A stretch of DNA of 34,990 bases from Acidiferrobacteraceae bacterium (GTDB lineage Bacteria; Pseudomonadota; Gammaproteobacteria; HyVt-429): the NCBI GenBank assembly GCA_011052015.1, contig DRJZ01000182.1, forward strand, positions 1-34,990. The letters are read 5' to 3'. Below are positions 4,868 to 34,990 of this stretch, one piece after another. Made by a program: the position numbers and the translations under genes. Within the stretch, counting starts at the first letter, position 1. The number at the start of each line of letters is the position of its first letter. Under the pieces are notes generated by a model. The model was not told the origin of the DNA. It did no database searches and saw nothing but the letters and a program-made list of their open reading frames with translations.

Positions 4868-4887
4868 TGTACCGACAATAATTCCCT

Positions 4888-4991
4888 AAGGAACCTCTGA
4901 ATAATACGCTCAACCGCCAAGGCGCCGAGAACGCCAAGAATTCTCTTTTGAAAATCAACAATCTATTATCTTGGCGGCCTTGGCGGTTCAA
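4888..4991. repeat. R3 interspersed inverted repeat
   Basis: An inverted repeat has left arm 'caaccgccaaggcgccgaga' (from 4911) and right arm 'cttggcggccttggcggttc' (to 4990). Between the arms lies 'aaaatcaacaatctatta'. That core and the right arm recur at 128-170, and the left flank 4888-4918 recurs reverse-complemented at 163-191. It fills most of the gap between the DUF255 gene and tatC. No coding capacity is seen, and it resembles a small non-autonomous element. Confidence 0.7.
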
Positions 4992-7000: not shown

Positions 7001-7056
7001 CAGCCTATCCCGGCGCGGTCACTCGCGCACTCAGTGGTATGTGCACCCCTATAGAT

Positions 7057-7178
7057 ACCCTCTCCCTCCAGGAGCACCCAACAGGGCATGAAAGGGTGAG
7101 GGTGAGGGGATAAAATTAAGAACAACGTATTGATTTTAATATCCCCTCATCCTCACCTTCTCCCGGAGGGAGAAGGGA
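7057..7178. repeat. R1 REPIN-like inverted pair, copy A (hisI-hisE gap)
   Basis: Two related units face each other. The left unit (7057-7111) begins 'accctctccctcc' and ends 'ggtgaggggat'. The right unit (7141-7178) begins 'atcccctcatcctcacc' and carries a perfect 9-bp hairpin ccttctccc-gga-gggagaagg. Reverse-complementing the right unit reproduces the left unit, except that the left has an extra stretch of about 17 bases containing 'cacccaacagggcatg'. A 29-base AT-rich spacer separates them. This is the geometry of a REPIN (two REP units in inverted orientation). Copies B (20638-20755) and C (34840-34895) share it. Confidence 0.8.
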
Positions 7179-7830: not shown

Positions 7831-8601
7831 TCATAACCTCACCTCAATCCCCGCCGCCTGCATGCAACGCTTGGCCTCTTCCACGGTATGCTCGGCAAAA
7901 TGAAATATACTCGCCGCCAACACCGCATCCGCATGACCCTCAATGACACCCTCCACCAGATGGTTGAGATTGCCCACCCCACCCGAGGCGATCACCGGGA
8001 TCTCCACCGTGTCGCACACCCTACGGGTCAGCGGCAAATCAAATCCATTACGGGTACCGTCCCGATCCATACTGGTCAACAGAATCTCGCCAGCGCCATA
8101 ATCAGCCATGCGCCGACACCATTCGATGGCATCAATGCCGGTGGCCTTGCGACCCCCGTGGGTAAAAATTTCCCACCGGGGCGTATCACCTCCGGTGACC
8201 TGCTTCGCATCCACCGCAACCACGATGCATTGGGAACCACAGTGGTCTGTGGCTTGTCTGACAAACTCTGGATGGGCCACTGCAGCAGTATTGATCGCCA
8301 CCTTATCGGCACCGGCATTGAGCATCCGCAACACGTCATCGACCTTGCGGATTCCGCCACCTACGGTCAGTGGGATAAATACTTCACCGGCAACCTGCTC
8401 CACCACATGGATCATGGTCCCACGATTATCGGAACTGGCGGTGATGTCTAAAAAGGTGAGTTCATCCGCCCCTTCCTGATCATAACGCCGCGCAATCTCC
8501 ACCGGATCGCCAGCATCACGAATGTCGACAAACTGAACGCCCTTGACCACACGGCCATTGTCCACATCAAGACAGGGGATAATACGTTTAGCCAGACCCA
8601 T
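7831..8601 (-). CDS. hisF: Imidazole glycerol phosphate synthase subunit HisF
   Basis: HisF is the cyclase barrel of IGP synthase. It uses ammonia delivered by HisH to convert PRFAR to imidazole glycerol phosphate and AICAR. The 256-residue TIM barrel has the catalytic Asp in [16 protein letters not shown] and Asp near TSMDRDGT, and the phosphate-binding loops [10 protein letters not shown] and IASGGVGN. Only 12 bases separate its ATG from the R2 repeat at 8614-8765. No strong Shine-Dalgarno sequence is left in the short 'ggctgagttaattta' leader, which may lower or alter its translation (inference). Confidence 0.97.
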
Positions 8602-8613
8602 TAAATTAACTCA

Positions 8614-8765
8614 GCCACAGAGGCACGGAGTTCACAGAGAAAAGCATATATCTACATCATCATTCATAACTGTGCTGCATAACTAAGGGTACACCCAAAA
8701 TCAGCCTGGCGATCAACAGCCTAGGCATACAAGGTTATTTTCTGTGAACTCCGTGCCTCTGTGGC
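8614..8765. repeat. R2 MITE-like element, copy 1 (hisA-hisF gap)
   Basis: The terminal inverted repeats start 'gccacagaggcacggagttc' (8614 onward) and are mirrored at 8738-8765, with 24 bases matching perfectly. The core of about 95 bases includes 'catcatcattcataactgtg' and 'cctaggcatac', which align with the core of copy 3 (19529-19751). It fills 152 of the 172 bases between hisA and hisF. There is no reading frame for a transposase. Confidence 0.8.
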
Positions 8766-8773
8766 AAGAATTT

Positions 8774-9517
8774 TTACGACTCTTTGCATAGATTATCGGC
8801 CAATTTCTGCCCCTCGGCAAAATCAAGGGTGCCTTCGTATATGGCCCGGCCGGTAATAGCGCCGGTGATTCCTGAGTCTCGTTGCTGACAAAGGGCACGA
8901 ATATCATCCAGGGTCTTGATGCCCCCAGAGGCCACTACTGGAACTCGCACCGCCTCTGCCAAGCGTGCCGTCGCCTCCACGTTGACACCGCTCATCATGC
9001 CGTCACGACCGATGTCGGTGTAAATAATTGCCACGACCCCATCGTGCTCAAAATGCTGGGCCAAGTCGATAACATCATGGTGTGATAGCTTGGACCAGCC
9101 ATCAATGGCCACTTTGCCGTCTTTGGCATCGAGCCCCACAATGACATGGCCGGGAAACTCGGCGCACATATCACTCACAAAGTGGGGAGCGTTGACCGCT
9201 TTGGTACCAAAAATCACATATTGAACCCCCGCATCCAGATAAGCCTGCACCGTATCCTCATCACGGATTCCACCCCCCACCTGTATAGGCAAATCCGGGT
9301 GATTCTCGGCAATGCATTTGATGACACCCGCATTTTCGGGTTTGCCGGAAAATGCGCCATTGAGATCTACGATATGCAGGCGTCTGGCCCCGGCCTTGGC
9401 CCACCGATCCGCCATCGCCACCGGGTCATCCGAGAACACGGTTTCGTCATCCATGCGTCCCTGACGCAGGCGCACACACTTACCATCCTTAAGGTCAATC
9501 GCAGGTATCAGCAACAT
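8774..9517 (-). CDS. hisA: ProFAR isomerase HisA
   Basis: HisA is the TIM-barrel isomerase that opens the ribose of ProFAR to give PRFAR, the fourth step of histidine synthesis. The 247-residue protein has the catalytic Asp in [16 protein letters not shown], a second acidic residue in the TDIGRDGM block, and phosphate-binding loops [11 protein letters not shown] and [11 protein letters not shown]. HisA and HisF are homologous barrels and their genes are adjacent here, separated only by R2 copy 1. It follows hisH by 18 bases. Confidence 0.97.
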
Positions 9518-9535
9518 AATACATTCCTTAAAGGT

Positions 9536-10168
9536 CTACCCATCAGCACCATCCCATCCCACAAAATTCTCCAGTAACTTCAGCCCCGAATGCTGACTTT
9601 TTTCGGGGTGAAATTGTACCGCGAAAAGATTGCCCCGACTCGCTGCCGATGTAAAACTGACACCATATTGAGTGACGCCAACAACCTCGGCAAGTTCACT
9701 GCTGTCAACATAATAGCTGTGGACAAAATAAAACCGGGCCCCCTGCTCAATCCCCGACCACAACGGGTGAGGATTCTGATCGACCTGGTTCCATCCCATA
9801 TGGGGGATCTTGAGGGCACCATCTCCGGGGGCCGGAAAGCGTTTTACCCGACCCGCCAACACGCCCAGACAATCGATACCCCCATCTTCCTCGCTGTGTT
9901 CGTACAGCGCCTGCAACCCCAGGCAAATACCCAGCAAGGGTTTTGACGTGATGACCTCGCCGATGGCCTGTCGCATACCGGTGGCATCAATAGCCTGCAG
10001 GCAACTGCCGATGGCACCCTGTCCAGGAAAGATCACCCGGTCCGCCGCCACCACCTCCTCAGGTCGATTACTGACCGTAACCGATGCCCCGTTAGCCACA
10101 TGCTCAATGGCCTTACGCACCGAGTGCAGGTTGCCAGAACCAAAATCAATAACGACGATGGATTGCAT
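9536..10168 (-). CDS. hisH: Imidazole glycerol phosphate synthase glutaminase subunit HisH
   Basis: HisH hydrolyses glutamine and channels ammonia to HisF. This is a class I glutamine amidotransferase of 210 residues: oxyanion region PGQGAIGSC, nucleophile Cys82 in LLGICLGLQAL, and the His187/Glu189 pair in VQFHPEKSQ. All three catalytic residues are present. It lies between hisB and hisA in the usual order. Confidence 0.97.
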   Translation of the reverse strand: MQSIVVIDFGSGNLHSVRKAIEHVANGASVTVSNRPEEVVAADRVIFPGQGAIGSCLQAIDATGMRQAIGEVITSKPLLGICLGLQALYEHSEEDGGIDCLGVLAGRVKRFPAPGDGALKIPHMGWNQVDQNPHPLWSGIEQGARFYFVHSYYVDSSELAEVVGVTQYGVSFTSAASRGNLFAVQFHPEKSQHSGLKLLENFVGWDGADG

Positions 10169-10232
10169 GGGTATTAATGAGTTAGTAGAAGCGCAGACAA
10201 GGACAGGCTGTTAACACAGCCGGTCTTGATCG

Positions 10233-10838
10233 TTATAAATTGCCCTTGGTCGAAGGGACCACACCCGCCATGCGTGAATCCTGTTCCAGGGCCATACGCA
10301 AGGCGCGACCAAAGGCCTTAAAAAGGGTCTCGGCAATGTGATGGGCATTGGTGCCTGATAAATTATCGATATGCAGCGTCACCAGGGCATGATTACAGAA
10401 TCCCTGAAAGAATTCGTTAATCAGATCAACGTCGAACTCCCCGATCCGGGCGCGGGGATACTGAACCCGATATTCGAAACCGGGCCGACCGGACAGATCG
10501 ATCACCACCCGTGACAGGGCTTCATCCAGGGGGACATAGGCAACACCATAGCGACGGATACCCTTCTTGTCCCCCACCGCACGGGCCAAAGCCTGTCCCA
10601 GAGTGATACCAATATCCTCAACCGTGTGGTGGGCGTCAATTTGGAGGTCACCTTTAGCCTTGATATCCAGATCAACCATACCGTGGCGCGCCACCTGATT
10701 CAGCATGTGCTCCAAAAATGGTATGCCGGTGTCGAAATTGGAGCGGCCTTCACCGTCCACATCAATAGATGCGGTAATGGTGGTTTCATTGGTCCTACGC
10801 TCGACAGTGGCCTTGCGCGGGTTCATTGCTGTATCCAT
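10233..10838 (-). CDS. hisB: Imidazoleglycerol-phosphate dehydratase HisB (monofunctional)
   Basis: This enzyme dehydrates imidazole glycerol phosphate to imidazole acetol phosphate. The 201-residue sequence contains only the dehydratase domain, with the manganese-binding motifs [17 protein letters not shown] and NAHHIAE. The N-terminal histidinol-phosphate phosphatase domain of the E. coli bifunctional enzyme is absent, so that phosphatase must be encoded elsewhere. The in-frame ATG at 10826 ([11 protein letters not shown]) is the more usual family start; the annotated start is the longer option. Confidence 0.96.
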
Positions 10839-10931
10839 TTCAATACTCGACTACGGCTGTGCTGCGATAGTACCAGAGGTGCCAGGGTTTCTGACAGTAA
10901 TTGCGCCATCCGAACGACCCGGCCGACGGTG

Positions 10932-12008
10932 TCAGGCCGCCTGCACCAAAGCCGATAGAAAGGCATCATTTTCTTTGCACAGGCCAATGGTGACCCGCAG
11001 ACAACTGTCTAGGGCGGCACTCACCCCATTGAGGTTTTTAACCAGGATGCCAGACTGTTTAAGTCGCATAAATACGGTATCCGCATTTTCGACCCGGAAC
11101 AGGATAAAATTGGTATGACTTGGATAGACCTTAACCCCAGCAATGGCCTGCAAGGCCTCAATCACCCTCTGGCGCTCAACACAGATTTGCTCAATTTGCC
11201 CACCAATCAAGCCCTGGTGCTCCAGAACGAAGGCTGCACCTGTCTGGGTCAGGCTGTTGATATTGTAAGGCAGACGAATCTTCTCAAATTCCTGTAACCA
11301 GGCCCGTTTTCCGGCGAGCACGCCGAGACGCAGGCCCGCCATACCCATCTTCGACAAGGTACGCATCACCAAGAGATTGTCGTATTGGTCAAGACGGGAC
11401 ATCCAGGTCTTTTTGGAGAAGGGCTGATAGGCCTCGTCGATAACGACCAAGCCAGGACTGGCCTCAATCACCGCCTCCAGCGCTTGGGTATCGAACAGGT
11501 TGCCGGTGGGGTTATTGGGCCAAGCAATAAACACCAGTGCCGGCTGGTGTTCTTCAATCGCCACACACATGGCGTGGGCATCCAGATCAAACGAATCCCT
11601 TAAAGATACCGCGACGAATTCCATGCCCACCGCGGCGGCGATCATTTCATACATCACAAAACTGGGTGTGGGGGCCAGTACCTTGCGCCCGGGGCCACCC
11701 ACCGCCAATTGTAGAAGCTGGATCAATTCATCCGACCCATTTCCCAACATGATATCCAATGACGCCGGTATATCCATGTAGGTCCGCAAGGCGTCTTTCA
11801 ACTCCTGGGCACGGGCATCGGGATAGCGATTGATTTGGACAGCACCCAAGGCCTGCAGCCAGGCCTGTTCAAGCTCACCTGGCCAAATATTGGGGTTTTC
11901 CATAGCATCGAGCTTGATCATGTTCCCAGCGTCGGCCACATGATAGGCGCGCAAGGTGCGCACGCTAGGGCGGATCCAATGTTCTATGCGTTTAGTCAGG
12001 GCGCCCAT
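10932..12008 (-). CDS. hisC: Histidinol-phosphate aminotransferase HisC
   Basis: HisC is a PLP-dependent class I/II aminotransferase that converts imidazole acetol phosphate to histidinol phosphate. Visible features are the N-terminal LDAMENPNIWP substrate-binding block, GNGSDELIQLL, AWPNNPTGNLF, VIDEAYQPF and the PLP-lysine region RTLSKMGMAGLRLG. The frame can be extended upstream to a GTG at 12032, but that codon lies inside the R2 repeat arm. The ATG at 12008 (MGALTKRIEHW) is preferred and gives about 358 residues, typical of the family. Confidence 0.95.
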   Translation of the reverse strand: MGALTKRIEHWIRPSVRTLRAYHVADAGNMIKLDAMENPNIWPGELEQAWLQALGAVQINRYPDARAQELKDALRTYMDIPASLDIMLGNGSDELIQLLQLAVGGPGRKVLAPTPSFVMYEMIAAAVGMEFVAVSLRDSFDLDAHAMCVAIEEHQPALVFIAWPNNPTGNLFDTQALEAVIEASPGLVVIDEAYQPFSKKTWMSRLDQYDNLLVMRTLSKMGMAGLRLGVLAGKRAWLQEFEKIRLPYNINSLTQTGAAFVLEHQGLIGGQIEQICVERQRVIEALQAIAGVKVYPSHTNFILFRVENADTVFMRLKQSGILVKNLNGVSAALDSCLRVTIGLCKENDAFLSALVQAA

Positions 12009-12021
12009 AATATGAGTTTTC

Positions 12022-12167
12022 GCCACAGACACGGAGAGCGCAGAGGATGATTTTGCATACTATAGCTGATGGCCGTCATGATGGCTTCGGGTATATCCCC
12101 TTATTTATATATAAAGTTGAAGATGATGCAGACATGTTTTTCTCTGTGCCCTCCGTGTCTCTGTGGC
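12022..12167. repeat. R2 MITE-like element, copy 2, inverted (hisD-hisC gap)
   Basis: The arms 'gccacagacacggagagcgc' (12022 onward) and 'ccctccgtgtctctgtggc' (to 12167) form imperfect terminal inverted repeats. The core, when reverse-complemented, aligns along its whole length with copy 3. Shared blocks include 'gtctg(c/t)atcatc' and 'tatagtatgcaaa', so this is the same element in the opposite orientation. It ends 14 bases upstream of the preferred hisC start codon. Confidence 0.8.
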
Positions 12168-12250
12168 AAAGGTGAATGGTTATCCATTCAATATAGGGAA
12201 GAGACAAAATAAATACCATCACAGTCTGGCGGCGTTCAACCGCAACAACT

Positions 12251-13567
12251 TTAATCGTCTTTAATACGATACTCGGCAGAACAAGCGTGGGCAGTCAAGC
12301 CCTCGGCTCGCGCCAACACGCTGGCCACACGACCCAACTCAGTGGCCGTATTCTGGCTACAGTGAATCAGACTGGTGCGTTTTTGAAAATCATAGACCCC
12401 CAGGGGTGAACTAAAGCGTGCTGTACCTGACGTCGGTAAGGTGTGGTTGGGACCGGCACAGTAATCCCCCAGCACCTCGGTGGTATAGTTGCCCATAAAG
12501 ATTGCCCCGGCGTGGCGAATATTGGCGAGCAGATCCTTTGGGTGGCTGACCAAAAGCTCCAGGTGTTCGGGGGCAATACGATTGACCAAGTCCACTGCCT
12601 GACCCAAATCGTGCACCTGGATCAGAGCGCCCTGTGCAGACAGTGACCGGCGAATGATCGCCTGCCGCTCCATTTGCGGAAGCAAGCTGTCGATGGCCTG
12701 TCGCACTTTTTCGATAAAGGCGCTATCGGGACTGATCAAAATAGATTGGGCTTGTTCGTCGTGCTCGGCCTGGGAGAACAGATCCATGGCTACCCATTCT
12801 GGGTCCACACTGCCATCACAAACCACCACGATCTCCGAAGGCCCGGCCACCATGTCGATCCCCACCTGACCAAACACCTTACGCTTGGCGGTGGCCACAA
12901 AAATATTTCCGGGGCCCACAATCTTGTCTACCGCCGGCACCGTTTGGGTGCCATAGGCCAGAGCGGCAATGGCCTGAGCGCCACCCAGGGTAAACACCCG
13001 GTCCACCTCGACGAGGGCGGCGGCCGCCATCACCAATTCATTCAGTTCTCCATGGGGGGTCGGCACGGTCATGATCAACTCACCCACCCCCGCCACCCGC
13101 GCCGGAATGGCGGTCATCAAAACGGTTGAGGGATAGGCGGCCTTGCCCCCCGGCACATACAGGCCCACCCGATCCAGGGCCGTCACCTGTTGACCGAAGA
13201 CGCTGCCGTCGGCCTCGGTGTACTGCCAGGATTCAAGCTTGTGATGCTCATGGTAGCTGCGTATGCGACCGGCAGCTAGGCGCAAGGCCTCACGCTGATC
13301 ATCGGCAATAGTGTCGAGGGCTTGTTGGAGCCGCTGGGTGGGAAGCTCTAATTCGGTCACCTGGGTCACTGCCAGGCCGTCGAGTTTGCTCGTATAATCG
13401 ACCAGGGCCTGATCGCCCTGGCTGCGCACTGCCTTGATGATGGTGTCCACCGTGCCTTCGACCTCTGGGTCCAGGGCGCGATTCCGATTCAGCAATGCGG
13501 TCAAAGTGGCATCAAAACCCGAGGCACTGACGTTGAGTACGCGCAGCTGACATGGCACCGGGGTCAT
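12251..13567 (-). CDS. hisD: Histidinol dehydrogenase HisD
   Basis: HisD is the zinc-dependent NAD enzyme that oxidises histidinol to histidine in two steps. The 438-residue protein carries [33 protein letters not shown], the [15 protein letters not shown] block, AGPSEIVVV, the [11 protein letters not shown] zinc region and the catalytic-base motif [10 protein letters not shown]. It overlaps hisG by one base (TAATG), which suggests translational coupling. Downstream, 218 bases with R2 copy 2 separate it from hisC. Confidence 0.97.
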
Positions 13568-14211
13568 TATCCCACTGCCTGCTCTATTTGCTTGACCACG
13601 TCCTTCACGATCTGGTGTTTCATGCGCATGGATGCGGTGTTGGCTACCAAACGGGAACTGATATCGGCGATGTGCTCGACCTCGACAAGCTTGTTGGCGC
13701 GCAGAGTATTACCGGTGTCCACCAAATCGACTATACGATCAGACAGTCCCGCCAACGGGGCCAACTCCATAGAGCCATAGAGTTTGATGATTTCGGTTTG
13801 AATCCCCTTAGCGGAAAAAAAACGCCGCGCGATGTTGACGTATTTTGTCGCGATCCGCAGACGGCTCCATCGACCCAGATCGTCATTTTTCGCCAACGTC
13901 TCTGGTTCGGCCACCATCATACGGCAACGGGCAATCTTCAAATCCACCAACTCATACAGACCATCACCCTCGAACTCCATGAGCACATCCTTGCCTACAA
14001 TACCGAGATCAGCAGCACCAAAGCGTACGTAGGTCGGTACATCTGCGGCACGAATGATAACGAGTTTAATATTCGTCTGATTGGTATCCAGGATCAGCTT
14101 GCGGCTGGTATCGGGATCGTCCACGGGCACAATGTCCGCCGCCTTGAGCAGGGGTAGACTTTCCTTAAAGATGCGCCCTTTAGACAGGGCAATGGTCAAG
14201 GTTTGGAGCAC
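13567..14211 (-). CDS. hisG: ATP phosphoribosyltransferase, short form HisG(S)
   Basis: HisG condenses ATP with PRPP, the first and feedback-controlled step of histidine synthesis. The product is 214 residues, with [16 protein letters not shown] at the start, the [16 protein letters not shown] block and the PRPP-binding region ending [10 protein letters not shown]. The C-terminal regulatory domain of the long form (about 300 residues) is absent. Short-form enzymes are known to need the HisRS-like subunit HisZ, which is not in this window. The start is GTG, four bases after the murA stop. Confidence 0.96.
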
Positions 14212-14214
14212 GGC

Positions 14215-15711
<1,497 letters not shown>

Positions 15712-16023
15712 TTAATTGGTGGATTCGACTAATTTCTGTAACTCACCGTTTTCATATAACTCCACCATAATATCACTACCGCCCACAAACTCGCCCTTGA
15801 TATAGAGCTGGGGGATAGTGGGCCAGTTGGAAAATTGTTTGATACCCTCTCGGATATCCGGGTCTGCCAACACATCCACCGATTCAAATTTTGCGCCCAC
15901 CGACTGCAACAACTGGACCGCCCGACCTGAGAAGCCGCATTGTGGGAACTGGGGGGAACCCTTCATATACAGGACGATGGCGTTGCTCCCTAAGGTGTCT
16001 TGGATACGTTCGTTGGTGTTCAT
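15712..16023 (-). CDS. grxD: Monothiol glutaredoxin, Grx4/GrxD type
   Basis: This 103-residue monothiol glutaredoxin has the CGFS active site (Cys29, context FPQCGFSGRA) and the glutathione-binding WPTIPQLYIKGEFVGGSDI block. CGFS glutaredoxins bind and deliver [2Fe-2S] clusters rather than acting mainly as thiol reductants, and they form complexes with BolA-family proteins. The next upstream gene, ibaG, encodes exactly such a partner. Insertion of grxD between ibaG and murA differs from E. coli. Confidence 0.95.
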   Translation of the reverse strand: MNTNERIQDTLGSNAIVLYMKGSPQFPQCGFSGRAVQLLQSVGAKFESVDVLADPDIREGIKQFSNWPTIPQLYIKGEFVGGSDIMVELYENGELQKLVESTN

Positions 16024-16109
16024 CTCATAACCTCTTTGCTGGTGTCTATGGATCTATTGGACGCGATTGACCGAGACCCCCCGAAAAACCAAAGGTAGTC
16101 CCGGTCCGG

Positions 16110-16349
16110 CTAATCCCCTTGAGCAGCCTGTTCCGGTGTCAGGGTGCGCATGGACAGGGCATGGATCTCGGCCTTCATCTTGTCGCCCAGAGCCGAGTAA
16201 ACCATCTGATGCTGCTGGATTATAGACTTACCACTAAAATCGGGACTCACGATCACGGCATTAAAATGGTGGCCATCACCATCACATTCAACCTGTGAAC
16301 CATCGAGACCGGTCTCGATCCATTGCTTAATATCTTGAGGTGTCACCAT
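16110..16349 (-). CDS. ibaG: BolA family protein IbaG
   Basis: This 79-residue BolA-fold protein corresponds to E. coli YrbA/IbaG, which sits at the same place between mlaB and murA. Conserved features are the GDGHHFNAVIVSP strand-turn and the HQMVYSALG helix with the conserved His that can ligate an Fe-S cluster in BolA-glutaredoxin heterodimers. It is adjacent to grxD, supporting a joint role in iron-sulfur trafficking. The name is assigned by synteny as well as sequence. Confidence 0.93.
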   Translation of the reverse strand: MVTPQDIKQWIETGLDGSQVECDGDGHHFNAVIVSPDFSGKSIIQQHQMVYSALGDKMKAEIHALSMRTLTPEQAAQGD

Positions 16350-16439
16350 CCGTATGGGAAGCCTGATTCTCGGGGTTTTGGGGTCGACTACTGGATTTAA
16401 GTCTCTAAAGCATAGCCTATGGCACAGGTACCCGAAATA

Positions 16440-16493
16440 TCCCCTTTGGGGACCCTAGCACCGCCCCCCAGCTACCCAGAAAAAGACTGGGGG
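16440..16493. other. Pair of hairpins between mlaB and ibaG
   Basis: Two small palindromes are visible: tcccc-ttt-gggga at 16440-16452, and cccccag/ctggggg with arms at 16465-16471 and 16487-16493. On the minus strand the second lies about 10 bases after the mlaB stop codon. No T-run follows, so these are candidates for mRNA processing or partial termination between the mla genes and ibaG. Confidence 0.45.
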
Positions 16494-16502
16494 AAACCTG
16501 AA

Positions 16503-16796
16503 CTAATCGTGCAGGCCAAAGGTTTCTGACAGACCGCTGATACGGATAAGCTGGGCCAATTGATCCGGGACATGGGTAAAATGTAGCTCAGTTCGACTCG
16601 ACCGGGCTTGGCCCAGCCATTCCACCAACAGGGCCAATCCAGCACTATCGCTACGCCCTACATCGGCAAGATCCAGCACCGCAGGCATCTGCTCGGCCCA
16701 TTGGCCGCTGGCAACGCGATACAACTCGGGCACGGTGGCAAAGCTCAGGTCGCCATGCAACCGGTAATCCCCTGTTGCCGTCCTTTGCAGACCCAC
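16503..16796 (-). CDS. mlaB: MlaB, STAS-domain subunit of the Mla phospholipid transporter
   Basis: MlaB is the cytoplasmic STAS-domain protein that stabilises and stimulates the MlaFEDB ABC transporter. The 97-residue protein has the STAS pattern, with a conserved Asp-Ser loop (LADVGRSDSAGLALLVEWL) where the Ser/Thr of anti-sigma antagonist homologues lies. It starts with GTG, four bases after mlaC, and ends the mlaFEDCB set. Confidence 0.9.
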   Translation of the reverse strand: MGLQRTATGDYRLHGDLSFATVPELYRVASGQWAEQMPAVLDLADVGRSDSAGLALLVEWLGQARSSRTELHFTHVPDQLAQLIRISGLSETFGLHD

Positions 16797-16799
16797 GGT

Positions 16800-17420
16800 T
16801 TACAACCCGGCCTCACGATTCTTGGCGGCCAGTTCCTCGATCACGGCATCAAGACTCTTGTTCTGCACTTCACTGCGCACAATGCTGCGCAATGTGGCCA
16901 CAATACTAATGCCCTCAATAGCCACGTCCATGGCCTGCCAGGCCCCTTCCTTTTTATATAAGATATAGTTCACCGAAATCTTGGGGCCCCCACCCTTGGG
17001 ACGAGTCTCGGTCTTCACCAACACCTGCTTGTCGCTCTCCTTGTACTTGCTAGGAATGAATTTGAAATCGGCATCAATATAGGTCAGCAAGGCGGTAGCA
17101 TAGGTGCGTACCAGATGATGCCGAAATTCATGCTCGAATCGGCTGCGCTGAGTTTTACTGGCGTTACGCCAGTGCTTTCCCAGCACCAATCTGGAAAAAC
17201 GATTGTAATCGATATAGGGCGCAGTAATTTCGTCAGCCAATAGGTAAAGTTTTTTAGGGTCTTTTTGCAGTTCAGACTTCTGGGCTCGCGCTTTGCTCAC
17301 CCAAGCACCGTATAACTCCTTAACCAAGGCATCGGGGCCCTTCTCCACCGCCGCTGTTGTGGCCGCTAACATCGCAAACATCACGAGTAGACCCGTTATG
17401 AATGATAGAGATCGCTTCAT
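16800..17420 (-). CDS. mlaC: MlaC, periplasmic phospholipid-binding protein
   Basis: MlaC shuttles phospholipid between the outer-membrane MlaA complex and the inner-membrane MlaFEDB transporter. The 206-residue product has an N-terminal signal peptide (SFITGLLVMFAMLAATTAA) and the MlaC/Ttg2D family pattern, including YIDYNRFSRLVLGKHWR, HHLVRTYATALLTY and the C-terminal VAIEGISIVATLRSIVRSE. The start overlaps the mlaD stop by four bases. Confidence 0.95.
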   Translation of the reverse strand: MKRSLSFITGLLVMFAMLAATTAAVEKGPDALVKELYGAWVSKARAQKSELQKDPKKLYLLADEITAPYIDYNRFSRLVLGKHWRNASKTQRSRFEHEFRHHLVRTYATALLTYIDADFKFIPSKYKESDKQVLVKTETRPKGGGPKISVNYILYKKEGAWQAMDVAIEGISIVATLRSIVRSEVQNKSLDAVIEELAAKNREAGL

Positions 17421-17890
17421 TTTCCTTCCCCTGAATCTGATTTGTTATAAAGGAATTTACCAATAAGGTCTTCCAAGACCAAGGCCGACTGGGTCAACAT
17501 AATTTGATCGCCATCCTTGAGAAAGCTTTCATCACCCCCTGGGTCCAGGGCAACGTACTGCTCACCCAGGATACCCGCAGTCTGGATGACTGCCGTGGAA
17601 TCCGCCGGTAGATTGGCATAGCGGCCGGCAATATCGAGAATCACGACGGCACGGTAGTCGTTGGAGTCCACGTAAATTTCTTTGACCCGCCCAATACGGA
17701 CCCCGGAGAGAGTGACCCGGGAACGCACTTTCAGGCCACCAATATTGTCGAAGCGGGCCTCAATCTGATAGGCGTCGGCCACATCAGCACTGCTGAGATT
17801 GCCCACCTTTAACGCCAACACCCCAAACGCGGCCAATCCAATGACCACGAACACCCCTACCCATGTTTCCATCGCTTGTCTTTGCGTCAT
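17417..17890 (-). CDS. mlaD: MlaD, MCE-domain substrate-binding subunit
   Basis: MlaD is the inner-membrane-anchored MCE protein that forms a hexameric ring above MlaE. The 157-residue sequence has one N-terminal membrane helix (VGVFVVIGLAAFGVLALKVG) and one MCE domain with the GLKVRSRVTLSGVRIGRV signature. A hydrophobic stretch near GILGEQYVALDPGG corresponds to the pore-lining helix region. It is shorter than E. coli MlaD (183), mainly at the C-terminus. It sits between mlaE and mlaC with near-zero spacing. Confidence 0.95.
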   Translation of the reverse strand: MTQRQAMETWVGVFVVIGLAAFGVLALKVGNLSSADVADAYQIEARFDNIGGLKVRSRVTLSGVRIGRVKEIYVDSNDYRAVVILDIAGRYANLPADSTAVIQTAGILGEQYVALDPGGDESFLKDGDQIMLTQSALVLEDLIGKFLYNKSDSGEGK

Positions 17891-17891
17891 G

Positions 17892-18671
17892 CTATACGTC
17901 TCCGAACATTAACGAGGTCAATATAAAATCCAGCGCTAACACCGCCAGGGAGGCGTTGACCACAGTACGGGTGGTCGCCCGACTGACACCTTCTGCGGTA
18001 GGCACGGCATCGTAACCTTCGAATACCGCGATCCAGGTCACCACAAAACCAAACACGATACTTTTGACGATACCGCTAACAATATCATCATGAAAATCTA
18101 CCCCCTCTTGCATGGATGACCAAAATACGCCCGCATCTACACCGAGCACTGTCACACCAATAAAATGACCACCGGCTACACCCACTGCGGTAAATAGCGT
18201 GGCCAACAAGGTGAGGCTAAAAAAACCGGCGAAAAATCTCGGCGCCACCACCCGCTCAATGGGATTGACGGCCATCATCTCCATGCCCGCCAGTTGCTGG
18301 GTAGCCTTCATCAAACCTATTTCGGCAGTGAGGGCCGATCCCGCACGCCCGGCAAACAGCAGTGCCGCCAACACCGGCCCTAATTCCCGGGTAAGGGACA
18401 GCGCCACCATCAGCCCTAAAGAAGACTCGGCGCCAAAATCCACCAACGTATTATAACCCTGGAAACTGAGCACCATGCCGACAAAAAGTCCGGCCACCAG
18501 AATAATCGTCAGGGTCAACACCCCCACCGCGTAGATCTGATGAACGAGCAAAGATGGCCGGGTGAAAATTTGCCAGCCTCCTAAAAACACCCGATACAAA
18601 AAGACGCTGGCCCGGCCCAGACGGGAAATATGGGCGATCACCCCACCACCGATTAACGCAAACAACTTCAA
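17892..18671 (-). CDS. mlaE: MlaE, permease of the Mla phospholipid transporter
   Basis: MlaE is the membrane permease of the MlaFEDB complex. The 259-residue protein has five to six hydrophobic segments and the MlaE family blocks YAVGVLTLTIILVAGLFVG, SFQGYNTLVDFGAE, ELGPVLAALLFAGRAGSALT and AEIGLMKATQQLAGMEMM. The latter forms the coupling region to the MlaF ATPase. Its start codon overlaps the mlaF stop by four bases, implying coupled translation. Confidence 0.96.
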   Translation of the reverse strand: MKLFALIGGGVIAHISRLGRASVFLYRVFLGGWQIFTRPSLLVHQIYAVGVLTLTIILVAGLFVGMVLSFQGYNTLVDFGAESSLGLMVALSLTRELGPVLAALLFAGRAGSALTAEIGLMKATQQLAGMEMMAVNPIERVVAPRFFAGFFSLTLLATLFTAVGVAGGHFIGVTVLGVDAGVFWSSMQEGVDFHDDIVSGIVKSIVFGFVVTWIAVFEGYDAVPTAEGVSRATTRTVVNASLAVLALDFILTSLMFGDV

Positions 18672-19495
18672 TCCAACCCCCCTCGAAGCAAATCGTCTTC
18701 GTAGGCAACTGCAGGGTAGTGGTAAGGCACCGGTCCATCCGGCAGGCCATCCATAAACTGGCGCACTTGAACTTGCTGGGAGGCCTGCAATTCCTCAGGC
18801 GTACCTTGGGCGATAATCTGTCCGTCTGCAATCAAATACATATAGTGGGCAATGGCATAGGCCTCCGCCACGTCGTGGGTCACCACCACAGAGCTAATGC
18901 TCAGGGCATCATTGACCTCGCCTATTAACTTAACGATGACTGCCATCGAGATCGGATCCAGGCCAGCAAAAGGCTCATCGTACATCACCAACATGGGATC
19001 CAGGACGATGGCCCGGGCCAAGGCGACTCGCCTGGCCATGCCGCCGGACAATTCACTGGGCATCAGCCGACGGGCGCCACGCAGCCCCACCATCTCCAGC
19101 TTGAGCAAAACCAGGTTTCGCAACACCGGTTCGGGTAGACGGCAATGTTCACGAACGGGAAAGGCGATATTCTCAAAGACATTGATATCGGTTAATAGGG
19201 CGCCACTTTGGAACAACATGCCCATACGTCTACGCAGTGCGTAAAGCTGCTTGAGCCGCAGCCTGGGTACAGACAACCCATCGACAATGATATCGCCATG
19301 ATCGGGACGCAGCCGTCCGCCGATAAAATTTAGCAAGGTTGTCTTACCGGTACCGCTGGGGCCCAGTATCGCGGTCACCTTGCCTCGTGGGATAGTCAGA
19401 TTGACCCCTTTCAAAATAGGCCGATCTCCATAGGCAAAATGCACATCGCGAAACTCCACCAACACATCATTACCGGAAGAATTCTTTGCCGCCAT
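18668..19495 (-). CDS. mlaF: MlaF, ATPase of the Mla phospholipid transporter
   Basis: MlaF is the ABC ATPase of the phospholipid transporter that maintains outer-membrane asymmetry. The 275 residues include Walker A GPSGTGKTT, the ABC signature LSGGMARRVALARA, Walker B MLVMYDEPFAGLDP and the H-loop VVTHDVAEA. It is the first gene of the long minus-strand run. Its upstream region is occupied by R2 copy 3, so any promoter must lie within or beyond that element. Confidence 0.96.
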   Translation of the reverse strand: MAAKNSSGNDVLVEFRDVHFAYGDRPILKGVNLTIPRGKVTAILGPSGTGKTTLLNFIGGRLRPDHGDIIVDGLSVPRLRLKQLYALRRRMGMLFQSGALLTDINVFENIAFPVREHCRLPEPVLRNLVLLKLEMVGLRGARRLMPSELSGGMARRVALARAIVLDPMLVMYDEPFAGLDPISMAVIVKLIGEVNDALSISSVVVTHDVAEAYAIAHYMYLIADGQIIAQGTPEELQASQQVQVRQFMDGLPDGPVPYHYPAVAYEDDLLRGGLD

Positions 19496-19528
19496 GATAA
19501 ACGTATTTATTTTATTTAAATGAAATTC

Positions 19529-19751
19529 GCCACAGACGCCTGCATGAACGCAGGCGGTAGAGCGAAGCAGGAGCCAGGGCCGAGGACACGGGGCTCACAA
19601 AGAAGAACATATAATCAAAACTTGTCTGTATCATCATTCATGGCTATGCAAGATAAGAGGATACAGCCGAAATCATCATATCGGGCCAACGTTATAGTAT
19701 GCAAAGTCACTCTACCCCACGAGGGGGTACCGAGGTCTGTGTCTCTGTGGC
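19529..19751. repeat. R2 MITE-like element, copy 3, with nested insertions (upstream of mlaF)
   Basis: The 338-base gap between mlaF and the DUF72-like gene is mostly this element. The arms are 'gccacaga...gacacggggc' at the left and '...ggtctgtgtctctgtggc' at the right, ending at 19751. The left arm is split by 48 foreign bases (19537-19584) that begin with a cgcctgc-atgaac-gcaggcg hairpin and contain 'gagcgaagcaggagcc' (family R6). The right arm carries a small accccacgagggggt hairpin not present in the other copies. The core matches copy 2 in reverse complement and copy 1 directly. Confidence 0.75.
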
Positions 19752-19833
19752 TAATGTACCTGTACCTACTAGTATGGGGAAGAACCGTATTAACAAGCAC
19801 ATTATTCTACCAGTTTGTGGACACCCGATGCGC

Positions 19834-20544
19834 TCACACATCGAGCAGTTCGGCGATGATGCGGACCTGTTCGGCGAGCTGCGGCGCTGGATCGGGTTCG
19901 GTAAAAAACAAGCCCGCACCGCGATTATCCCCCATCCAGTCCCCCAGCTGTTCAACCACTGCCCTCAGGGGCTTGAGTTCGGACTGACCCATAAGTGCGA
20001 CCATAAATTCACCGGGTTCTTCGGGTTTGGGCTCCTGGTTGGGGCGCCAACATAAACTGGCTCCAAAGGCATTCAACAACTCCAACATTTGCCCAGTTCG
20101 AATAGACCCCATGGGCAAATCTACGCAGACAGGAAGGCCGTCATCTAGCGCCTCTAAACGGCCTTGTAACCAAGTGGTCGATAGGTTGGACTCCTTGGAG
20201 GATATACGCAACAAATAAGCCGATAACCAGGGGCGCAAGTCCCGGACCATTTCCTGAAATTGTTGGATCTGCTGCTGCCATTTTTCAAAACCCGGCACTG
20301 CTGTATCCCCAACCCAAGCAGGCAATTCCAATACAAAACGAAATCCCTCATCGATGTCTTCTATCCATTGATTGAGATCAGCGGCAGAAACAGACTCCCA
20401 TTTCTGCGCAGGCACTAACACGCTGCGAATAATGTTGCTGTAATAGCACAAACGCCACTCCGTAGGCAGCGCATCATCATAGAACCCGTCTTGCCACTCG
20501 TCATGTTCCCAACCACGGATTCCGATCAGCAGGCTTTCATTCAT
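19834..20544 (-). CDS. DUF72 (YecE)-like protein
   Basis: The 236-residue product opens with LLIGIRGWEHDEWQDGFY followed by ALPTEWRLCYYS. This resembles the DUF72/YecE pattern 'iGtsGWsyxxWxgxFYPxxLpxxxxLxyYa', and a later block EGFRFVLELPAWV corresponds to the family's FxFxxKxPxxI strand. DUF72 proteins are TIM-barrel-like and of uncertain biochemical role. This one diverges from the standard motif where 'FNTVEINSTFY' is expected (here IIRSVLVPAQKWESV), so it may be a distinct subfamily. It lies between mlaF and caxA, which are direct neighbours in E. coli. Confidence 0.55.
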   Translation of the reverse strand: MNESLLIGIRGWEHDEWQDGFYDDALPTEWRLCYYSNIIRSVLVPAQKWESVSAADLNQWIEDIDEGFRFVLELPAWVGDTAVPGFEKWQQQIQQFQEMVRDLRPWLSAYLLRISSKESNLSTTWLQGRLEALDDGLPVCVDLPMGSIRTGQMLELLNAFGASLCWRPNQEPKPEEPGEFMVALMGQSELKPLRAVVEQLGDWMGDNRGAGLFFTEPDPAPQLAEQVRIIAELLDV

Positions 20545-20943
20545 GTGTTGGGTTCTAGCAGGTTTACAGGGTGGCTAACGCTATCACAGGTGCCTATAGA
20601 TAAAAAATGGGGTCAGGGTCATTGCTGTCCCACTTAATCCCCTCTCCCATCAGGGAGCACCCCTAGGGCATAAAAGGGTTGGGGAGAGGGGATCGAAAGA
20701 TAAGCCATTGTTTTATATATCCCCTCATCCTAGCCTTCTCCCGGAGGGAGAAGGAATAATTCCAACTTCTAGGTTACATGAAGTCATGTCTTTGGTGCCA
20801 ACACTCGCAATCTATGTCCTGATAATCAGCATGTTACGGTGCATTAACATCGTGTTAAGTGGGACAGCAATGGGTCAGGGTCGATTTGCATTGTCCCGCG
20901 CTAACGACTACAACAGGGCACAATATCTATAATGGAGATCAGT
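20545..20943. repeat. Repeat-filled gap: R4 inverted repeat enclosing R1 copy B
   Basis: No gene is seen in these 399 bases. An inverted repeat attgctgtcccacttaa (20621-20637) / ttaagtgggacagcaat (20855-20871) brackets the centre. Each arm sits beside a directly repeated 'gggtcagggtc' (20610-20620 and 20872-20882). Such 'gggtcag' stretches resemble REP units seen near RAYT transposases (recollection, not tested). R1 copy B lies inside the bracket immediately after the left arm. A caxA promoter could lie in 20883-20930, but no convincing pair of hexamers was found. Confidence 0.65.
20638..20755. repeat. R1 REPIN-like inverted pair, copy B
   Basis: The left unit (20638-20693, 'tcccctctcccatcaggg' to 'ggggagaggggat') and right unit (20719-20755, 'atcccctcatcctagcc' with the ccttctccc-gga-gggagaagg hairpin) face each other across a 25-base spacer. 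The right unit is almost identical to that of copy A. A 32-base segment of the left unit (20653-20684) is identical to copy C at 34854-34885. Confidence 0.8.
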
Positions 20944-34771: not shown

Positions 34772-34990
34772 AACGTTACTAACGTACTCATTAGTAATTT
34801 GGCTCTTCGGGAAAATTTGTGGGTAGCTCTGAAGCCTAGCCCCCTCTACCTCCGGGAGCACCCCTAGGGCATAAAAGGGTTGGGGTGAGGGGGACTCAAT
34901 CAAGGCCGTGTATATTTGCTCAAGCACAATGTCTAACTCACTCAATATCTCATGGTTCCAGAAACGCATGACACGGTATCCCATAGCTTC
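34763..34990 (-). CDS. DUF559 endonuclease-like protein, C-terminal part (5' end beyond window)
   Basis: The frame is open to the right edge and reads EAMGYRVMRFWNHEIL, then DIVLEQIYTAL. This matches the C-terminal end of DUF559 proteins (compare 'xGyrVlRFwnxeVlxxlxxVlexI'), which belong to the Vsr-like PD-(D/E)XK nuclease group. After that the reading frame runs through R1 copy C, giving SPSPQPFYALGVLPEVEG, and stops inside the mgtE 3' end. The catalytic residues lie outside the window. I recall many DUF559 entries ending in translated 'SPSPxPSP' repeats, which fits. Confidence 0.7.
   Translation of the reverse strand, partial: EAMGYRVMRFWNHEILSELDIVLEQIYTALIESPSPQPFYALGVLPEVEGARLQSYPQIFPKSQITNEYVSNVSN
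34840..34895. repeat. R1 unit, copy C, forming the DUF559 gene 3' end
   Basis: A single left-type R1 unit begins 'cccctctacctccggg' and ends 'ggggtgaggggga'. The segment 34854-34885 is identical over 32 bases to copy B at 20653-20684. Unlike copies A and B there is no facing right unit within the window. It lies 69 bases after mgtE and is read as coding sequence by the DUF559 frame on the minus strand. Confidence 0.8.

Follow-up and report, generated by a model that had tools for sequence, protein, structure and literature searches.

The window, by which we mean the whole analysed stretch of 34,990 nucleotides, contains three copies of a short gene-less repeat, R2. With modest confidence, we regard R2 as a MITE-like, non-autonomous derivative, moved in trans, of hairpin elements whose gene-bearing form encodes a GxxExxY protein. 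This reading is based on the repeat family itself, empty sites in a relative, the bracketing of GxxExxY genes by arms of the same class, the presence or absence of the gene-bearing unit, the association of arms and gene among genomes, and the invariant D/ExK/QxxxY residues of the protein.

An R2 unit is approximately 150 nt long and comprises an arm, a core of about 100 nt and a second arm, often with a tail of about 35 nt beyond one arm. The arms, which represent a widespread kind of inverted repeat, are composed of 8-9-nt units of the CRCRRAG type. The initial annotation described a repeat family with copies at 8614, 12022 (inverted) and 19529, and the positions, arms and core were all confirmed. 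The features are as follows:

8614..8641, plus strand: left arm of R2 copy 1 (GCCACAGAGGCACGGAGTTCACAGAG...), 28 nt, 96% complementary to 8738-8765
8642..8737, plus strand: core of R2 copy 1 (96 nt), core profile match E 2.6e-17
8738..8765, plus strand: right arm of R2 copy 1, identified by complementarity to the left arm
12022..12167, minus strand: R2 copy 2, inverted, arms about 12022-12045 and 12142-12167, profile match E 6e-22
12168..12205, plus strand: tail outside one arm of R2 copy 2, common to other copies
19529..19751, plus strand: R2 copy 3, both arms interrupted, profile match E 4e-14
19537..19584, no strand: palindromic insert in the left arm of R2 copy 3, after GCCACAGA, read from the sequence
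19713..19735, no strand: small REP-like palindrome TACCCCACGAGGGGGTACCGAGG in the right arm of R2 copy 3, recurring in the arms of other copies
19752..19786, plus strand: tail outside the right arm of R2 copy 3, from the comparison of tails among copies

The arms of copy 2 are 29 nt long with a complementarity of 79%. No credible reading frame was detected inside the copies, and the co-directional gene run in which they had been placed is real, the main genes from 255 to 20544 all being on the minus strand. Judging from the translations, copy 1 presumably lies between hisF and hisA, copy 2 between what we take to be hisC and hisD, and copy 3 upstream of a presumed ABC-transporter ATPase gene. 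The distances to the downstream start codons are 12 nt (hisF), 13 nt (likely hisC) and 33 nt (ABC-ATPase), respectively. Being hairpins between cistrons, they may have an effect on the his-operon mRNA as well.

The initial annotation made the mobile nature of R2 depend on further copies in the genome, and such copies exist. In the 2.6-Mb own genome (G000) the arm pattern occurs at 52 places, compared to two for the reversed control. BLAST searches with copies 1 and 2 retrieved further full-length copies (E 6e-17 to 1e-9) on contigs C77, C51, C45, C168, C149, C122 and others. Fourteen copies can be aligned across arms and core, and the copies are about 70% alike. A profile built from the core alone, with the outer arms left out, matched 13 places in the own genome (E 6e-24 to 5e-5), 11 of them at E < 1e-13 and two of them partial. 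The R2 family is thus not a product of chance. Hairpins consisting of arms only are found in the genome beside the core copies. The same profile gave two matches in G001, the only same-genus genome among the relatives sampled, and one borderline match (E = 0.005) but no convincing R2 in the 54 other relatives, of which two belong to the same family and the remaining 52 to the same class. Therefore, R2 is genus-restricted as far as sampled, and it is far more numerous in the own genome. An adapter-like sequence (CTTCCAGGTGACAAATTTCTAAGTCATTG...GCGGCCGC) is identical at the ends of own contigs C168, C3, C163, C40 and C55, inside hairpin arms; it is an assembly or library artefact breaking at hairpins.

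Empty sites in relatives, the second observation on which the initial annotation had staked its claim, were found in G001. This genome and the window are collinear, with about 78-87% identity at the nucleotide level, and the sites of 14 further copies were located in it by queries built from their flanks. Among the 17 orthologous sites, nine are without element, six have some other hairpin, complete or partial, and two carry R2. Window copies 2 and 3 are missing from their G001 sites, as are the elements at C159, C49, C88, C149:34031, C118, C77 and C140 (named by own-genome contigs). The site of copy 1 is taken by another hairpin, GCCGCAAAGACGCAAAGGACGCAGAG, and different octamer hairpins or parts are found at the sites of C51, C16, C45, C172 and C11. 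An R2 ortholog is located at the C122 site and a truncated one at the C149:45796 site. Of the 17, three (C88, C16 and C11) consist of arms only, without the core, and C140 is incomplete; excluding these four leaves 13 sites, of which seven are empty, four have another hairpin and two are shared. Flanks of the sites without element are 77-90% identical to G001, and the spacer flanks are diverged, so that the exact insertion borders cannot be read from this comparison. The G001 hairpins occupying the same sites gave no match to the R2 profile, and their homology with R2 was rejected. Since about one third of the orthologous sites have a different hairpin or part in G001, elements are also inserted at hot spots or replaced in situ.

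Alternatively, the family could be old and immobile, and the nine empty G001 sites could have lost their copies secondarily instead of having always been empty. The orthologs at C122 and C149:45796 that are common to both genomes, as well as the mere 70% likeness of the copies, are in line with an old family. We consider this account very improbable, as it calls for nine separate losses while the flanks stay 77-90% identical, and as the two same-family genomes and 52 class members have no convincing R2 core. It is also quite unlikely that the hairpins are structured intercistronic RNA elements, involved in mRNA processing, stability or translation control, which are not mobile now and are remodelled in place in operons. 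The predicted RNA fold of copy 1 is indeed very stable (-77.3 kcal/mol vs -41.6 for shuffles, sd 3.9, z = -9.3), the copies precede start codons within operons by 12-33 nt, and six of the 17 G001 sites have another hairpin or part at the same place. Against this stand the nine sites that are empty despite conserved flanking genes and the hairpins at shared positions, which are unrelated in core. Furthermore, no conserved or consensus RNA structure of the core was found, compensatory change between the arms within a copy was not significant (p = 0.17), and the lack of an Rfam match led to the rejection of a known structured RNA. Terminator-like and promoter-like sites in 8400-20000 occur in the numbers expected from shuffles.

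The tail outside one arm, roughly AAATGTRCCTGGTTACCCACTCAATATNGGGAAGARCC and common to several copies, is found on either side of the core. It is 5' of the core in copy 2, C149:45796 and C159 (and, by eye, C149:34031), and 3' of it in copy 3, C77, C51 and C49 (and, by eye, C118), plus one G001 copy. The R2 core thus flips between its arms relative to the flank, and inversion via recombination between the arms is the simplest account. Opposite orientation alone is consequently no proof of separate insertions: the inverted copy is genuine, as first annotated, while the weight that had been put on copies in both orientations as a sign of mobility is reduced. The suggested search for target-site duplications gave none at the R2 junctions, where the ends are not repeated and the exact borders are not sharp. 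Some mobile elements make no target-site duplication. A non-autonomous mobile element is accordingly supported by the gene-less, dispersed copies and the empty sites, though not by a target-site duplication, and it is from the former that we infer transposition.

Taken by itself, R2 appears to fit the MITE kind: it has terminal inverted repeats, is short, lacks coding capacity, occurs in dispersed copies and displays insertion polymorphism. Bacterial MITEs are 70-300 nt long with terminal inverted repeats of 15-30 nt (PMC3733652). Like NEMIS, RUP, ERIC and Nezha, R2 is gene-less, has a stable fold and is present in many intergenic copies (PMC3733652). Unlike these, it has arms of tandem 8-9-nt units, a core that flips between the arms and no target duplication seen. 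What seems unusual is the partner gene: the relative that bears a gene between arms of this class encodes GxxExxY, a PD-(D/E)XK protein, and not a transposase. Repeats around one gene together with many gene-less copies are also known from REP/RAYT systems and from TIRtrons with tyrosine transposases (PMC3733652). RAYTs, however, are HUH tyrosine transposases (PMC3733652), and the REP sequence is a palindrome of 20-40 nt with a GTAG end, whereas R2 is about 150 nt long with longer, unit-built arms.

Because the initial annotation had asked for a transposase or nuclease gene enclosed by such arms, 56 relatives and 398 genomes of the phylum were searched for PF13366 (GxxExxY). GxxExxY genes (PF13366/TIGR04256) bracketed by the same kind of arms were found. 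The flanks of 41 usable GxxExxY loci were given an inverted-repeat score, with 30 hisA loci scored in the same way as a control. The median score was 19.0 for the GxxExxY flanks, and 34 of the 41 loci were above the maximum over shuffles (13.0). None of the hisA loci exceeded all shuffles (median 8.0, maximum 12.5). When compared to mispaired flanks from other loci, 14 of 41 were above the 99th percentile, this smaller excess being due to the resemblance of the arms between genomes. The arm units include CCACGGAG-GCACGGAG, CCGCAGAG-TACGCAGAG, CCACAAAG-ACACAAAG and CCACAGAT-AAACGCAGAT, and the arms are often no more than about 15 nt from the stop codon. Eight further loci are in plasmid records of named organisms: bracketing arms are clear in Bacteroides finegoldii (CCACAGAGGACACAGAGGTCACAGAG) and Bernardetia sp., and octamer hairpins lie on either side of the gene in Gemmatirosa kalamazoonensis. 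The remaining five were not above shuffles; some of these have a single arm, direct repeats or arms that are very short. Inverted arms of the R2 class hence tightly wrap GxxExxY genes in several bacterial phyla. Phage records and viral contigs gave no GxxExxY.

The own genome encodes one intact GxxExxY protein on contig C82 (TIGR04256 match 3e-43). One arm, ACCACAGAGGACACGGAGGTCACAGAG, reaches the ATG and the opposite arm begins at the stop codon. Gene-less hairpins with C82-type arms are located at C108:11139, C77:10164 and C92:21919, and others are cut by contig ends (C3, C163, C40 and C55). Both the gene and its arms are absent from the corresponding site in G001, as judged on one comparable flank, the own contig ending 150 nt past the gene. 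Of a second GxxExxY copy the own genome retains a remnant (C100, L233), G001 has it intact (C35, L231), and the distant relative G017 has an intact gene (C10, L232) at the same site, the flanking genes of which we take to be trpE and trpG. Its occurrence there in three genomes (two genera, different families) indicates either that the site is preferred or that the insertion is old and shared.

The association between arms and gene was also evaluated across the 398 genomes, those with at least five arm-pattern hits being taken as arm-rich and the counts being read by hand. Among the genomes matched by PF13366, 29 of 64 are arm-rich, compared to 14 of 334 unmatched ones (p = 3e-16). The association is largely between families: it is weak within f89, the family that supplies most carriers (26/45 vs 11/29, p = 0.15), and outside f89 the numbers are 3/19 and 3/305 (p = 0.003). 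G405 has just two arm hits, and both flank the GxxExxY gene. A clear exception is G208 (1.8 Mb), which lacks a PF13366 match in spite of 202 hits of the arm pattern. Such a genome would be expected if R2 were a MITE-like element mobilised by some unrelated transposase that is lost or has escaped notice, with GxxExxY units using the same host process or settling in existing hairpins. The R2 arms, similar but not identical to those of the own C82 gene, and the R2 core, without a trace of a GxxExxY gene, would agree with this as well. We still find it unlikely, since GxxExxY genes are tightly enclosed on both sides, with an arm often touching the start or stop codon, and repeated chance capture across phyla is not expected. 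In addition, GxxExxY is the only gene observed in the own genome to be enclosed by arms of this kind.

In eight GxxExxY proteins D67, E77, K79, Q91 and Y95 are invariant, forming a D...ExK...QxxxY signature. As far as sequence motifs can tell, GxxExxY is a small PD-(D/E)XK nuclease-like protein with the QxxxY motif of RecB/Cas4-type nucleases. Sequence searches for a solved structural relative returned chance-level matches only. The family (TIGR04256, PF13366 PDDEXK_3) is named by motif only, and to our knowledge no activity is known for any of its members. The literature found, which was thin on subscription journals, contained passing mentions of GxxExxY, with no description of its function or of inverted arms of such kind, and the arm sequences were not printed in it.

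Under the reading that we prefer, R2 would be mobilised by the GxxExxY protein. Most likely, the arms would fold into hairpins on single-stranded DNA, the protein would recognise or cut these hairpins, and the excised or copied strand would enter intergenic positions within operons. The arm-only hairpins and R2 itself would then be deletion derivatives moved in trans. More tentatively, octamer-arm hairpins and GxxExxY might together constitute an undescribed class of mobile elements, present in several phyla, in which a small RecB/Cas4-like nuclease replaces the transposase and which is the source of MITE-like and arm-only families; PF05635 proteins with heptamer-type arms may be a parallel case. 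GxxExxY is a widely annotated bacterial family, and its link to the arms offers a clue to the possible target of the protein in cutting or mobilisation. Should the protein act on the arms that surround its gene, its role could be tested directly, and an origin would be at hand for many short, so far unexplained hairpins in bacterial operons.

Five loci of PF05635, the four-helix protein family of the 23S rRNA intervening sequences (L236, L237, L239, L240 and L242), are enclosed by inverted arms built from other short tandem units (GGGATTAGGG, GTGAGGGG, GTAGCTAG, CAGAAGA and GTTAATGG), which looks like a parallel to GxxExxY. The intervening sequences of 23S rRNA with an S23/PF05635 gene, such as the Coxiella IVS, are likewise selfish elements with one small gene (PMC4990558). 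The PF05635 elements differ from the GxxExxY ones in protein fold and in arm units (GGGATTA and GTTAATG types).

Other repeats were noted in and around the R2 copies. Small REP-like palindromes (CCTCGGTRCCCC..GGGGTA type) are nested in R2 arms, apparently at GA/GA positions, including those of window copy 3 and of the copies at C118, C149:45796, C122, C172, C16 and C155. They may be true REP-like sequences, and as the same nesting of REP-like palindromes in arms is found in G001, it seems that the arms are targeted by another family of palindromes. Another octamer-arm family is present in the window at 129-192 and 4886-4991 (CCGCCAAGGCGCC.../CTTGGCGG), joined to TTAATCAGAGGTTCC, which also adjoins a GxxExxY gene in the relative G046 (L229). 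A third, C+T-rich family (ATCCCCTCTCCC...GGGAGAGGGGAT and CCTTCTCCCGGAGGGAGAAGG) occupies positions 7055-7176, 20637-20754 and 34839-34895 of the window and is also found beside other hairpins elsewhere in the own genome.
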